Part shown: in pieces, positions 10,801-16,879 of the stretch
Numbering within the stretch: position 1 is the stretch's first letter
Layout of the letters: every line of letters begins with the position of its first letter
Assembly (NCBI GenBank): GCA_009602725.1
Contig: WELB01000119.1
Coordinates: 6,893 to 31,464 of the forward strand
DNA from: Spirogloea muscicola
Lineage: Eukaryota; Streptophyta; Zygnematophyceae; Spirogloeales; Spirogloeaceae
Direction: 5' to 3'
Length of the DNA: 24,572 nucleotides
Notes under the pieces: model-generated
Database searches by the model: none
What the model saw: the letters and a program-made list of their open reading frames with translations, nothing else
What the model was told of the DNA's origin: nothing
Position numbers and translations under genes: made by a program

Positions 10801-11638
10801 TCGAGCTGGACGAGCTGTTTCAAGTGACTGCCTCTACACGTCGGAGCTCCTTACGGAGCAGCGGTATCTGTGAGGGGCCAGACTTTAGCACTCTTCCAGG
10901 GCATGGTCCAGGCGAGGGCAACGGCCCCCCAAGACCAGGCAATACCATTTCGACTCCAAGGTTGCATAGCACAGCTTCTGACAGAAAGAATGATGCAACC
11001 TGCAAGTCATAAGGTGCGCCACTCAGAGCTTGCAGACCAGCAGTGTGCTGATATTTCTACCTTAGCCACCTTAAGATAGGGCCTCGCTTTATGTAGACCC
11101 ACTTCTTGCACTGATTGTGCCTGAACAGTGCATCGCAAAAATTGGCCAACCTTTTATTTCATGAGCACCATGCACCCTCTCGCTGATTATTCTCAGAAGT
11201 CGAGGGCGTCAGCTATGTAGTCTCTCTCCGCCATAGAACAATCGGATAACCGAACAGTGCGATTGACTCCGTGTGCAGGTAGTCCCCTGCTTCCATCTTG
11301 TTCAACCGAAACTGAATCGTCTTTCATTGGAGTTGAGATATCGTAGAAAGGGAAAAAGGCACTTTTCAGGAGGTCGGTGTCTGTGAAAGGTCAGCCCAGA
11401 GGCGTGGACCAGGTCTCAGGGTAAAGCTGTACAATAAGGTAGCTAAAGAATCGCAGAATGAAGTGCAGCTTGTCATTGTGCTATTTGTTTGTGCAACAAC
11501 AATACAATCACAAAAGTTCCGGATTTGGAACCTCAAATTCCAATCGTCAGTGGCACTCAGCAGGCGACTTCAAAAAAATAAGTCTCATTGTGCTATTCGT
11601 GTTGTGTGAAGCCAACTAGGGGCTGTCCACATGAATCG

Positions 11639-11661
11639 CAAGACCCATCCATTGGGTCTTG
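11639..11661. repeat. Perfect 9-bp hairpin in the 3' flank of the FAP-like gene
   Basis: CAAGACCCA (11639-11647), a 5-nt loop, then TGGGTCTTG (11653-11661): a perfect 9-bp stem. It lies about 160 bp downstream of the stop codon of the minus-strand chalcone-isomerase-fold gene, so it may be in its 3' UTR. No function is known. Confidence 0.5.
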
Positions 11662-11818
11662 TCATGATGGCACATGAACATGCTTGGTGCAGCGCAAGTC
11701 AGATCTTCACTTGATTGTGCGGCAAAGTCAGTATCAAATTTCAGCAAGACAAAAAGTAAATCAACAAAGATTCTAGCAAATTGGTGTACACAGTACATCC
11801 AGTGCCGCAAGTGGTGAC

Positions 11819-13554
11819 CTACAGAATCTTAGATGCACCCTGGGCAATGCTGGTCTTGAGAGAAGGGCTGACTGCCTCCTTGCCCAAGTATACATCAAAG
11901 AGGGCCTGTGCAAGTGGCTGGGATGATATACAGGCCAACGGCTTCTCTGGGATTTTCAAGTCGGTGGCATCCGCCAAGTACGCAATCTGCAATGAAGGGG
12001 GCTCTCAGCAATTGTGCAGAGTTGGCAGTCTCAGAAACTCCGTGCCAGTGTCAAAAAGGACACTGGCCTATGCTGCCCAAACCGGCGTCCAAGATGTCTA
12101 GGTGCAGCAGAGATGGCAGAGCTTATGGCTGGCAAGAGAGAGAGGCACTGTTATTGGTGCCGCTGGACGTGATCTACCTGCAAAGTTGCTGGCATCAACC
12201 AAGAGACGATGATGGCGCTGTTCTTCTTCAAAGACTGGCCCTTGATTGTCTCGCCAAATGCTATGAGTGCCGACTCTGCCGTGTCACCTTCGTTGGCGGC
12301 CTTCAGCCTGGGCCTCAGTTCCTCGTTCAAAGCCTCGACGAATTGATCGCCTCCTACATTGCGTGCGAGCACCAGCACAAGGGTCTTCTCCACAGGGGCT
12401 GCATGCATGCGAACAAAGCCCAATCAGCTGCCTGATTGTTTGTAACTCAGTATGCATCGTGATTTGGGAGCCAATGTACGGTGTATGATAAGGGCAGGGC
12501 GAAGCTGCACAGCCACCTATGCAGTGGCTGCCTTCAACAGTACCTCGAATGAGAGCGCTGTAGAAGCCCTCATCCTCCTCCAGAGCAGCCGCGGACCTGC
12601 CCTTCCACGTAGCCTCAAAGCCCGCGAAGGTTTTGTTTGCATAGAAGCCGACTGCATAGACCTTGACTGCCAGCACCGCGATCTTCTTCTCGCGAACACC
12701 TGGACAGAGCAGGACATGGCACCCCGAGTATAGCACATCATGCAGATCCAAGCTACAAGATGGGCAGCAGTGTCGTCAACTCTACGGCTGTTGCCTCGAA
12801 GATAGGAACATTGTAACGTGTTGAAGATTCGTACGCAGACTATGCTTGTCAACCTGTGCCAAGGAGCTCCAGGACATTGTCGCCGGGGATAGCCAGAGAG
12901 GACGGGAATGCAATGTTGGTGGCAGGCTCCTGCACGGCCGTGTCTGTGTCTGCAGCTGGTCACAGGGGCACGAAGAGTACGTGGTATCAGTCTTGGCAAA
13001 CTCTGGGACGTAATTCACACAGCTCAGCTTAGATGCCAGGGCTTCAACCAGGCCGCCATGCTTCCAACGTGGGCACTGTGCTATCTACGACCATTCGCAA
13101 TCTCGAGAATGCGAGCAGATGTGTGCACATTGCGAATAGGCGTGTCCAGGACAGAAGCTTAGGGCGCTTGGGAAGCCAGAGCTTACTAGAGGTGGCATTG
13201 GCGGCCAGCATTGACTGCCAGATGACATGCTTAATGACTGCATTGCCTTCTCAAGTGATGGCGGACGCATATGGCACAATGCAGTCGCAACGACGACGTT
13301 TCGAAGCAGCCAATTGATCGGGTTGCGGACACTGCAAGCGTAACGGGGGCCCGAGGCCACAAGGAGGTCTAACCGGCAGCACGGGCAGCTCCAGGACGCC
13401 GCGCAAGCGCCCATCGCAGGCTCGGAGCTCGGGGAGCGAGCCCCGGGGAGGCCGCCGCGGATTGCAGCGACGGAGCCGCCGCGGTCGGCGGACGGGCGGC
13501 GCGGCCGGGGGCGGCGCGCGCGGCTGCCGCCGCCGAGGTTGCGAGCGCGGCCAT
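11819..13554 (-). CDS. Chalcone-isomerase-fold / fatty-acid-binding-protein-like, probably plastid-targeted
   Basis: Exons: 13554-13374, 12949-12854, 12699-12544, 12398-12178, 11986-11819 (stop TAG); 273 aa, all GT..AG with matching phases. Residues 1-60 are Ala/Arg/Ser/Pro-rich without acidic residues (MAALATSAAAAARAAPGRAA...), a typical plastid transit peptide; the mature part starts about at DTDTAVQEPATNIAFP. Family blocks follow: LLGTGVREKKIAVLAVKVYA, GFYANKTF, FYSALIRAPVEKTLVLVLAR, QFVEALNEELRPRL, LKKNSAIIVSWLMPATLQ, and a C-terminal LAQALFDVYLGKEAVSPSLK, as in plant FAPs. FAPs of this fold bind fatty acids in plastids; true chalcone isomerases cyclise chalcones. The VSPSLKTSIAQGASKIL tail favours FAP over chalcone isomerase, by inference. 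Start: ATG at 13554 in a good context (GCCATGG), seven bases from the gap. Intron 1 is 424 nt with nothing recognised in it. Confidence 0.87.
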
Positions 13555-13560
13555 GGCGGA

Positions 13561-14122: not shown

Positions 14123-15056
14123 CCCGCTCCTCGCTGCCGCCGCCAGCAGCTTCCGCGGCGCTGCACCGCTCCGCCTCCCGCGCCCGACCGCGCCATCGGC
14201 CCGCCGCCGCCTGTCCGCCGGGCCCGCTGCCAGCATGGCGGGCGCAAGCAAGGTCCAGAAGAGCGACGACGAGTGGCGGGCCGTCCTGAACCCCGAGCAG
14301 TTCCGCGTCATCCGCCAGAAGGGCACTGAGTACGCCTCCCCAGCGAGCCCTCGCGGACGACTTGCGCTCTGGTAGCCCGCGCTGCCGCCGGCGCTGCCTT
14401 CGCTTGTGACGTTGGTGCTGATGCCGATGCCATCCACGCTGCGTCAGGTACCCCGGGACTGGCGAATACAACAAGCACTACAAGGACGGGACGTACCTGT
14501 GCGCCGCCTGCCAGGCGCCGCTGTACAAGTCCACCACCAAGTTCGACTCCGGCTGCGGGTGGCCCGCCTTCTACGAGGGCATCCCCGGCGCCATCACTCG
14601 CACAGTACGTGTCTGCTCCCGTGCCACCTGCCTCTGCCTCTGATGCTTCGTAGGTCGCTTGCGCATGCCGGCTCCTTAGGTCTGCAAGTTGAGCTGCATT
14701 CTCTCTGCTTTCTGCTTTCCTTTTACCTTGTTAGCGTGTGTGCCTGACGGTGGAGGAGAGTGACTGAACCTGGGCGCTCGACCGGCGTCGCAATGATTGC
14801 TGAACCAGGGCGCTCGACCACCTTGCCAAGCATGAGACTGCCGACCTGCTCGCATGACTCTGACAGCCCCTTGTCTTTGTGCCTCTGCTTGCATTGCCTG
14901 CTGCGGCAGACGGACTCAGACGGCAGGCGCGTGGAGATAACCTGCACGCGCTGTGGCGGTCACCTGGGTCATGTTTTCAAGGGCGAGGGCTTCAACACGC
15001 CGGTGGATGAGCGGCACTGCGTCAACAGTGTGTCGCTGAAGTTTACAGAAGAGTGA
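14123..15056 (+). CDS. MSRB: Peptide-methionine (R)-S-oxide reductase MsrB, 5' end in gap
   Basis: Reduces methionine-R-sulfoxide in proteins. Exons: (gap) to 14329, 14448-14604, 14910-15056 (TGA stop); phases agree. From the ATG at 14235 the product is 132 aa, the size of the MsrB core. Residues counted from that Met: zinc-type C50-x-x-C53 (CAAC) and C96-x-x-C99 (CTRC), SGCGWPAF with the candidate resolving C68, GGHLGHVF, and [12 protein letters not shown] with catalytic C121 encoded by TGC (Cys, not Sec). The frame upstream of 14235 is open to the gap and reads [20 protein letters not shown]..., Ala/Arg/Ser-rich, so a plastid transit peptide starting inside the gap is likely and Met at 14235 may be internal. 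Divergent from the FAP-like gene and convergent with the DUF3253 gene. Intron 2 holds a 20-bp direct duplication. Confidence 0.92.
14764..14819. repeat. 20-bp direct duplication in MsrB intron 2
   Basis: ctgaacctgggcgctcgacc at 14764-14783 recurs at 14800-14819 with one mismatch. It lies entirely within the intron 14605-14909; no function is evident and it may be a small duplication scar. Confidence 0.7.
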
Positions 15057-15863
15057 GGGGGGGTGGAGGGGAGCCAATGCTGGAGGAATGTGCGCTTGGC
15101 CGCACCTCAGCCTGCAGAGTGACTGGTTTCCATTGTATTGCTGCCTTAGGACGCCTATCAATTGGATGATTAGGGTTACAAACCTTGCAGCCATGATATC
15201 CCCACCACCTAGCCTACTCCAACCCCCCGACCAAGCGGAGAACAAGCATACCTGCTTGTGGAGCCTTGAATGCCTTTCAAGGACCAGGGGCTTGTCTACC
15301 AACCTGAGCATGCTGTCTTGTGACACTGCTATGGGTCATTCGTCACTATCGACCAGGCAGCCGCCACTTTATTGATGTGCTTGCTGTATTCTAGCAATGG
15401 GGCCACTGTGATGCTCACATGCTGTTCTCTTACCCTGGCTTGGCTAAGCGAGCGCCAACGTGGACGGTCCTCACATTACTAGCTATGAAAAACCTTACAC
15501 TAAGATCTGGTGTTGCACTGCGTGGGGCTGAGGACGTCAATCATAATGGGTTGGAAATGGGGTTTGACAGCATCATGCAAACAGAATCACACATTACTAA
15601 TGAAGCTGTCGATAAGCTTGTCAATGCTCATAACTATTGCGACATACTTCAACACTGTCATCACAACATCACGCATCTGAGCCTCACACAAAGCAGCAGA
15701 GAAAGTGGTCATCCTCGAGTGACTGCCAATGGCAAGGAGGCCTCATTTGGGCAAAGCCACTGTCATCGATTGCGTGCTTGTGTGTAAAGCGACACATCAT
15801 ATCCGCACCTCAGGTGCCTCAGATTCTCCAAGACAATGAGGTTAAGCAGCTGCAGTGACGGCT
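15057..15863. other. Intergenic region between convergent genes
   Basis: Lies between the stop codons of MsrB (+) and the DUF3253 gene (-), so it should contain both 3' UTRs. Open frames are short and unrecognised. I searched the minus strand of 15421-15863 for a eukaryotic SECIS element (an ATGA quartet, unpaired AA in an apical loop, a matching GA) because of the in-frame TGA in the DUF3253 gene. ATGA strings occur (for example minus-strand ATGACAGTGGC near 15766-15756, which can pair with GCCATTG), but none has the full core arrangement. Confidence 0.6.
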
Positions 15864-16879
15864 TCACGGGGTTGATGGAGGCAGACGCAGGCGGATCGGC
15901 CCTTTGGTCGGCTGGGATGGATCTTGAACTTCGCCCTTCTGAGGAACAGCAACAAGACTGTGAGCTTTTGATATAGGCAGGATTGTGGACTGGTGCTGTG
16001 CTGCAGATGAGCATGACAGTTTTCCTCAACACCCACCTGCATGATCTGCAATCTTCCTTGCAATGCAAGCGCCCTTGCGACCTGCATGAGAAGGAGCACT
16101 TAGCACGGCTGCCGCGCGTATGAAACGGAGTGCTGCCTTGGCATGCACTTTCTGGACATCAACGTAAATTGCAAGGAGGAGGCGGCTTGAGAACCTGCCG
16201 CGTCTCCTCCATGCGAAGCCTGCCACCGAATCAGCCACCACACACATCGTGAGGTGCGTTGGTGTGGCATGTGCCGAGTACTTGGCCAATGGTGCTGAGG
16301 AGCATGTGAGCACAGCCGAATGACTACCTCCATCCAGATGGGTCTACCGCCCTCGCTGCGTTCCACCCTCGCCAGAGTTTACGTGCACGGCATAGAGCGA
16401 GTCACAGTGCAAGTCAGGCAGCTGGCCCAGCATCACCATCTGCGAGTGTCACATTCAATCTGCGAGGATCTGCAGGCGGCGGCCGGTGTAAGATGGGCAG
16501 GAGCAGTGGCAGCAGCAGCAGCACCAGCCTCCGACGGTCACATGGTGGAGGTGCGCTTCCGGCGGCCGAGGATGGCCAGGATTGCCGCCTCCAGCTCGCC
16601 GGCTGGCCCCGCATCGGCCGTCTGCGCCTCTGCGGCGCCACTGTCGCCGCCGCCATCACGAGCGCCGGGCGCCGCCTCGGCCCCACCTCTACTGTGGCGG
16701 CCTCTACCATCAGCGGCGCTGGCGGAAGTCGGCGATGCCGGCACCGCCGCCGCTTCGGCCTTGCGCTTCCGCGGCGCCGGCTCATCGAGCGCCGCTTCAG
16801 CGGGCCGCCCAGAGCGGCTTCTGAGCGCCGATGGGTCCTCCTTCTGGCGCCGTCCCTGGCGCCCCCCCGCTTTCACCAT
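15864..16879 (-). CDS. DUF3253-domain protein with in-frame TGA at the conserved Cys (candidate selenoprotein)
   Basis: Homology-based model: exons 16879-16525, 16355-16328 (28 nt), 16219-16195 (25 nt), 16081-16037, 15938-15864 (TGA stop); GT..AG with matching phases, 175 residues. Residues 1-95 are low-complexity, basic and Ala-rich (perhaps a nuclear or disordered tail). From ELEAAILAILGRRKRTST the protein follows DUF3253: T-M-(TGA at 114)-PSEAARAVDPSGWR, LRMEETRQ, VARALALQGRLQIMQ, KGEVQDPSQPTKGPIRLRL. The family consensus I recall is T-I-C-P-S-E-[AV]-A-R...W-R-x-L-M..V-R..A-R..L-A..G-R-[LI]-x-[IV]-x-Q-K-G..x-D-P..GPIRL, so TGA replaces the Cys. A TGA-free model also exists: donor at 16541 (AT|GTGACC), exon 16355-16328 in another frame, exon 3 skipped; it gives 161 aa but loses the PSEAAR and W-R motifs. 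Molecular function is unknown for the family. Start: GCCATGG context. Confidence 0.78.
16538..16540 (-). other. In-frame TGA at the position of the family's conserved Cys
   Basis: The codons read ACC ATG TGA CCG TCG GAG GCT, i.e. T-M-TGA-P-S-E-A, against T-I-C-P-S-E-A in the family. Coding similarity continues directly on both sides and across the next two splice sites, which is not expected of a random stop. It may be a selenocysteine codon, a base error for TGC or TGT, or an inactivating mutation. No SECIS was identified by eye. Confidence 0.7.

Follow-up and report, generated by a model that had tools for sequence, protein, structure and literature searches.

Eukaryotic selenoprotein genes that have Cys homologues, including those for GPX, SELENOT, and MsrA, have in common a TGA codon at the Cys site, a SECIS-like element in the 3′ UTR, and the presence of Sec machinery genes. 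The same three features are seen for the algal gene described here. New eukaryotic selenoprotein families are rare. Three came from a survey that covered 137 algal species, and that paper gives 42 algal selenoprotein families (PMC7539508). The gene described here belongs to DUF3253, a family that lacks an assigned function and whose fold is not that of the usual redox enzymes. We know of no selenoproteins in this family.

The window, meaning the whole stretch of 24,572 nucleotides from Spirogloea muscicola that was analysed, carries this gene on its minus strand (Table 1). All four introns have GT-AG borders, and exon 1 is in phase with exons 2 to 5. An earlier reading of this DNA, made without database searches and hereafter called the sequence-only reading, had proposed that the exon with the TGA joins the rest of the domain in phase, and the five-exon model bears this out. 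The spliced product has 175 residues, with X at the in-frame TGA. The context of this codon on the minus strand, where 16540-16538 is the TGA, reads ACC ATG TGA CCG TCG GAG GCT. Bacterial DUF3253 proteins differ from the algal protein, which has about 95 additional N-terminal residues and is encoded by a gene with four introns.

Table 1. Positions of the DUF3253 gene, its candidate SECIS element, and nearby features within the window.
Feature	Position	Strand	Basis or remark
DUF3253 gene, five exons	16879-15864	minus	Homology and splice signals, without transcript data
Exon 1: ATG, basic low-complexity N-terminal region, first DUF3253 helix, in-frame TGA, P-S-E-A	16525..16879	minus	
In-frame TGA, conserved DUF3253 Cys codon, proposed selenocysteine codon	16538..16540	minus	Also in second copy
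Exon 2: R-A-V-D-P-S-G-W-R	16328..16355	minus	Ala and Arg codons split across its junctions
Exon 3: L-R-M-E-E-T-R-Q	16195..16219	minus	Second copy identical
Exon 4: V-A-R-A-L-A-L-Q-G-R-L-Q-I-M-Q	16037..16081	minus	
Exon 5: K-G-E-V-Q-D-P-S-Q-P-T-K-G-P-I-R-L-R-L-P-P-S-T-P	15864..15938	minus	Terminating TGA 15866-15864
Candidate SECIS core: ATGAC, helix II, AAA, apical hairpin, helix II 3′ arm, CGAG	15714..15766	minus	Own scan, folding
Candidate SECIS core plus flanks able to pair below it (possible helix I)	15681..15790	minus	Folding
Other shared 3′ stretch	~15489-15372		
Methionine sulfoxide reductase B (MsrB), Cys form	~14440-15056	plus	Convergent with the DUF3253 gene; adjoins the second copy too
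Repeat or mobile element	11467-13556		

When compared with the Pfam model for DUF3253 (PF11625), the product with X matches over residues 95-171 (E 4.9e-21, 75.2 bits, gathering cut-off 22.1). In the bacterial members examined, Cys is found where the algal gene has TGA. These comprise five proteins from plasmid records that were aligned with the algal product and three further plasmid records. For these records (eight of eight), Cys was scored at the best place only, one record looks degenerate, a second place in Variovorax was left out, and the queries themselves carried Cys. The solved member of the family, RHA04536 of Rhodococcus (PDB 2ns0), likewise has Cys at this position. The C-P-S, W-R, and G-P-I-R positions are common to the family and the algal protein, which scores from 75 to 82 bits against Pfam.

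Six letters were compared at the TGA in the Pfam model, and the best total was obtained with Cys (82.5 bits). The other letters were Ser (79.1 bits, 3.4 below Cys), X (77.7 bits, 4.8 below), Ala (77.5 bits, 5.0 below), Arg (77.3 bits, 5.2 below), and Trp (76.4 bits, 6.1 below). Because the aligned residue is Cys in relatives and Cys is the top-scoring letter in the model, we assign the TGA to the codon of the conserved Cys in this family, and the sequence-only reading had correctly identified it as such. The expectation of Cys at this site derives from the sequences examined here and not from a formal definition of DUF3253, and the gene would satisfy it only if the TGA is read as Sec or Cys. 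A larger set of 80 genome loci is of no use as a test of Cys conservation because these loci were picked with a Cys-containing pattern. A motif search that itself contains Cys placed the site in 72 of the 80 loci, and exactly one Cys is present in the domain region of 66 of these 72 loci. Viral relatives were also sought; seven stretches fit a pattern and none was confirmed. No recurrent bacterial gene neighbour of DUF3253 emerged from the 57 of 212 flanking ORFs that were scanned, where the top family accounts for 4 of the 57 (among 25 of 37 families listed).

A search of the assembly (153 Mb, 471 contigs) identified a second DUF3253 copy on a different contig (C133), with 88% identity over 737 nt. 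This copy retains the TGA, the reading frame, the five exons, and GT-AG borders at every intron. A base-calling or assembly error that changed TGC to TGA, which the sequence-only reading had raised as a caveat, would require only one base in a single copy. However, a one-base error is very unlikely because an 88% identical locus on another contig has the same TGA, and we give this explanation practically no weight.

The two copies also permit an assessment of selection on the sequence that follows the TGA. Neither copy has a frameshift or, apart from the TGA, a stop ahead of the terminal one. The sole coding indel between them is 3 nt long and lies in exon 1, and the four introns have 4, 0, 1, and 2 gap columns. 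The 183 nt downstream of the TGA differ by 15 substitutions, with 3, 2, and 10 at the three codon positions, and the two closest to the TGA are synonymous. The changed codons are synonymous in 11 of 14 cases in frame, as opposed to 2 of 14 and 2 of 15 when either alternative frame is used. Values of dN and dS beyond the TGA are 0.026 and 0.29, respectively (dN/dS ~0.09; Fisher P 2.5e-5), and random placement of the same substitutions yields equally few amino acid changes at P 5e-5 (permutation, 20,000 trials). This pattern of coding substitutions 3′ of the TGA therefore indicates that the region is selected as protein in this frame, with purifying selection acting on the residues encoded after the TGA. 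It should be noted that the test involves two copies from one genome, without another eukaryotic homologue. Upstream of the TGA the constraint is looser (dN 0.051, dS 0.104), which fits with the low-complexity character of the N-terminus. The 20 codons preceding the TGA have one non-synonymous and no synonymous change, which are too few to test.

These comparisons weigh heavily on the possibility that the TGA is a nonsense mutation in a decaying gene that is common to both copies. A single base change suffices to convert a Cys codon to TGA, and a third DUF3253 copy was not found in the assembly, whereas SecS and SPS have three copies each. Regardless, neither copy has acquired a frameshift or an additional stop, the splice sites are intact, and both the low dN/dS ratio and the permutation result speak against decay, such that we consider this explanation very improbable. 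Contigs C178 and C80 were evaluated as locations of an extra DUF3253 copy, and within the portions retrieved nothing but the repeat or mobile element of the window matches. This element has an inverted copy on C80 (99.95% identity), another copy on C178 (93%), and a partial copy on C133 (92%).

Another alternative is that splicing removes the TGA or a different transcript start avoids it, so that the downstream exons serve a protein without that residue. Five GTs in exon 1 share the phase of intron 1 (16707, 16692, 16686, 16659, and 16641) and could in principle act as donors that skip the TGA, and there are no transcript data. However, the GT closest to the TGA (16541) is out of phase with intron 1, and skipping would cost the protein its first DUF3253 helix and P-S-E-A as well, both of which match the family. 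Furthermore, both changes between copies in P-S-E-A are synonymous. We judge there to be only a very slim chance that the TGA is avoided in this manner.

If the TGA is instead read as selenocysteine, a SECIS element would be expected to recruit eEFSec and tRNA-Sec from the 3′ UTR. No convincing SECIS had been recognized by eye in the 3′ flank by the sequence-only reading. We nevertheless located a candidate that begins 97 nt past the stop codon and is present in both copies, although longer flanks make its fold ambiguous. Its order is ATGAC-AGTGGCTTTGCCC-AAA ... TGGCAGTCACT-CGAG. The scan demanded ATGA, AA located 10-13 nt past the quartet, four or more pairs in a proximal helix II, and a 3′ NGA. 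These limits were fixed after the candidate was seen, and controls were run with identical limits. The 808-nt tail gives a single match (score 7), and the counterpart in the second copy scores 8 or 9 depending on the register. The opposite strands of both tails give no matches.

First-order Markov shuffles of the tail (n = 3,000) reach a score of at least 5 in 41 cases and at least 7 in 17 cases. When the window and 18 loci of the genome were scanned on both strands (185,774 nt with overlaps), nine rows with a score of at least 5 were recovered: two for the candidate site, two for one repeat site at 11992, two for loci of repeat copies, two for SPS loci, and one for the eEFSec locus. The two SPS rows, L008 3098 (+) and L009 3089 (-), are on the coding strand of two Cys-form SPS copies, and these matches could be chance, exon, or fossil SECIS.

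The candidate was also evaluated by folding and by comparison between the copies. The SECIS form is the best RNAfold structure of the core alone at 53-58 nt for the window and 55-64 nt for the second copy. Other folds are favoured from 59 nt upward and from 65 nt upward, respectively (in pieces to 66 and 68 nt), and the preference amounts to 4.7-6.6 kcal/mol in pieces of 100-140 nt. The energy model of RNAfold leaves the SECIS quartet unscored. The core fold from the window places two of the three apical As in base pairs. Identity between the copies reaches 53 of 60 columns at the SECIS block and is mostly 39-49 elsewhere in the tail, with two stretches at 52 and 55. The other shared 3′ stretch (Table 1) is conserved between copies in up to 52 of 60 columns. 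A search against Rfam at E values up to 5 returned no SECIS in either copy. The sequence core of a putative SECIS element (ATGA, NGAN, helix II, and AA) is present in the 3′ flank of both copies, and we regard the element itself as likely, although not proven.

Components of the Sec machinery were also sought in the genome. Exons for SecS are present on C36, C32, and C3 as judged by the Pfam SepSecS model (best E 4.8e-16), and weaker matches occur on C49, C80, and C48 (E 0.003-0.04). The selD profile identifies SPS exons on C3, C232, and C56 (best E 5.8e-20), where matches were made exon by exon and none is above the whole-protein cut-off. As a control, this profile gives matches in 14 of 14 genomes and exceeds the cut-off in two. 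An initial search for eEFSec returned one weak match on C80 (E 0.37). On the minus strand of C80 there are, in order, matches to GTP_EFTU (9.2e-8), euk_SelB_III (1.2e-4, below cut-off), and eEFSec_4th (3.8e-12), together with a stretch that we take to be the G-domain of eEFSec. SecS and SPS thus have three copies each, which suggests, from gene counts alone, a multiplied or hybrid genome. A triplicated zygnematophyte genome is mentioned in PMC6627142.

The search for tRNA-Sec was less successful. The sole match to RF01852 is below cut-off, and ARAGORN assigns it as tRNA-Ser(tga). Three pattern searches for tRNA-Sec produced nothing convincing by eye (0 matches; 31 versus 27 in a reversed control; 15 versus 17). 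Absence of tRNA-Sec is not established by these efforts because only 53 of 7,899 first-look candidates were scored. Thus, among the machinery that the sequence-only reading had listed for checking, SecS, SPS, and eEFSec are present but tRNA-Sec was not found by limited searches.

This gap is relevant to the possibility that UGA-C is subject to readthrough without selenium, wherein a near-cognate tRNA (Trp, Arg, or Cys) provides some full-length protein. TGA followed by C is a leaky stop context. Selection beyond the TGA is also expected from readthrough, and both the missing tRNA-Sec and the ambiguous SECIS fold leave room for it. However, the TGA coincides precisely with the conserved Cys and interrupts a compact domain, a SECIS-like element is retained downstream in both copies, and the genome retains SecS and eEFSec. 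In addition, Trp and Arg score well below Cys at this position in the Pfam model, as noted above. We therefore view readthrough as unlikely, although it remains the most plausible of the alternatives that we have considered.

Other genes were inspected as selenoprotein controls. GPx has Cys in the four loci that were read (L103, L106, L107, and L108) and, by motif, in L104 and L105. In the four loci that were read, a phase-2 intron interrupts the codon for the GPx active-site Cys (TG|T), and an exon-wise scan for Sec or Cys would miss the site for this reason. Two matches to Rdx were also rejected. One (L002) is a Cys-type SelW-like exon whose TGA falls close to where the match ends and not at C-x-x-C, and the other (L003) appears to be spurious. 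Of the three SPS copies, the two that were read have a motif of the Cys type. GPx, MsrB, these two SPS copies, and the SelW-like exon thus all have Cys, and we observed no other selenoprotein that could serve as a control.

We conclude that the DUF3253 gene is probably a selenoprotein gene whose TGA is read as selenocysteine. The sequence-only reading had put it forward as a candidate, and support now comes from the second copy that keeps the TGA, selection beyond this codon, the SECIS-like element, and the genes for SecS, SPS, and eEFSec. Our analysis establishes the gene model by homology, the position and conservation of the TGA, the signature of selection, the SECIS-like element, and the Sec machinery genes. 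Sec insertion itself is inferred, without transcript or selenium data, and the same is true of the redox-switch role discussed below. In the proposed mechanism, the UGA in exon 1 would be decoded as selenocysteine by eEFSec and tRNA-Sec. The product would be the full-length 175-residue DUF3253 protein, in which Sec replaces the single conserved Cys of the family.

Some indication of what this residue might do comes from the family fold. The predicted structure of one bacterial homologue (L033), based on 24 sequences, has a mean pLDDT of 93.3. Its Cys24 lies between a two-residue strand and the helix formed by residues 25-31, directly before that helix. A Foldseek search with this model gave one match at E <0.001, which is 2ns0 (1.7e-7), and weak matches (E of at least 0.14) that include the winged-helix proteins Fur, Z-alpha, and PadR. 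Based on this bacterial model, the conserved Cys or Sec site is predicted to be just before helix 2 of a winged helix, which would be an unusual setting for selenocysteine. At the N-terminus of helix 2, Sec would be kept in its reactive selenolate form. The combination of one conserved Cys, no CxxC, and a selenol at a helix N-terminus suggests a redox or electrophile switch that relies on one residue. We propose such a one-selenol switch as the most likely job of the residue, an inference made without functional data. The switch would probably govern contact of the winged helix with nucleic acid or protein.

DUF3253 is not mentioned in the open-access literature that was searched, which mostly leaves out subscription journals, and an earlier report of a DUF3253 selenoprotein is therefore not excluded. 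The main text of the algal survey (PMC7539508) makes no use of the term DUF, and DUF3253 is absent from the DUF passages in a 2026 prokaryotic review (PMC13188914). Likewise, the open-access literature, insofar as its contents could be searched, offered no precedent for a selenoprotein with a winged helix or for one that is a helix-turn-helix transcriptional regulator. Searches restricted to known selenoprotein families would overlook this gene. If our interpretation is true, the use of Sec for Cys would imply that the Cys is chemically active, which provides a testable lead on the role of DUF3253 in many bacteria.

The DUF3253 gene differs from known eukaryotic selenoproteins such as GPX, SELENOT, and MsrA in that its product is predicted to adopt a winged-helix fold and, at the site, has a single conserved Cys position but lacks CxxC. 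It is conceivable, although we hold this idea only tentatively and with considerable doubt, that the gene represents a new selenoprotein family with Sec in a winged-helix domain of the nucleic-acid-binding type, where selenium is a sensor or switch in a regulator rather than part of a thioredoxin-like enzyme. Redox regulators of the OhrR/MarR type use one Cys in a winged helix. A single reactive thiol within a winged-helix fold is what makes these proteins our working analogy, whereas homology between them and DUF3253 has not been demonstrated, and no DNA target or peroxide response is known for DUF3253.
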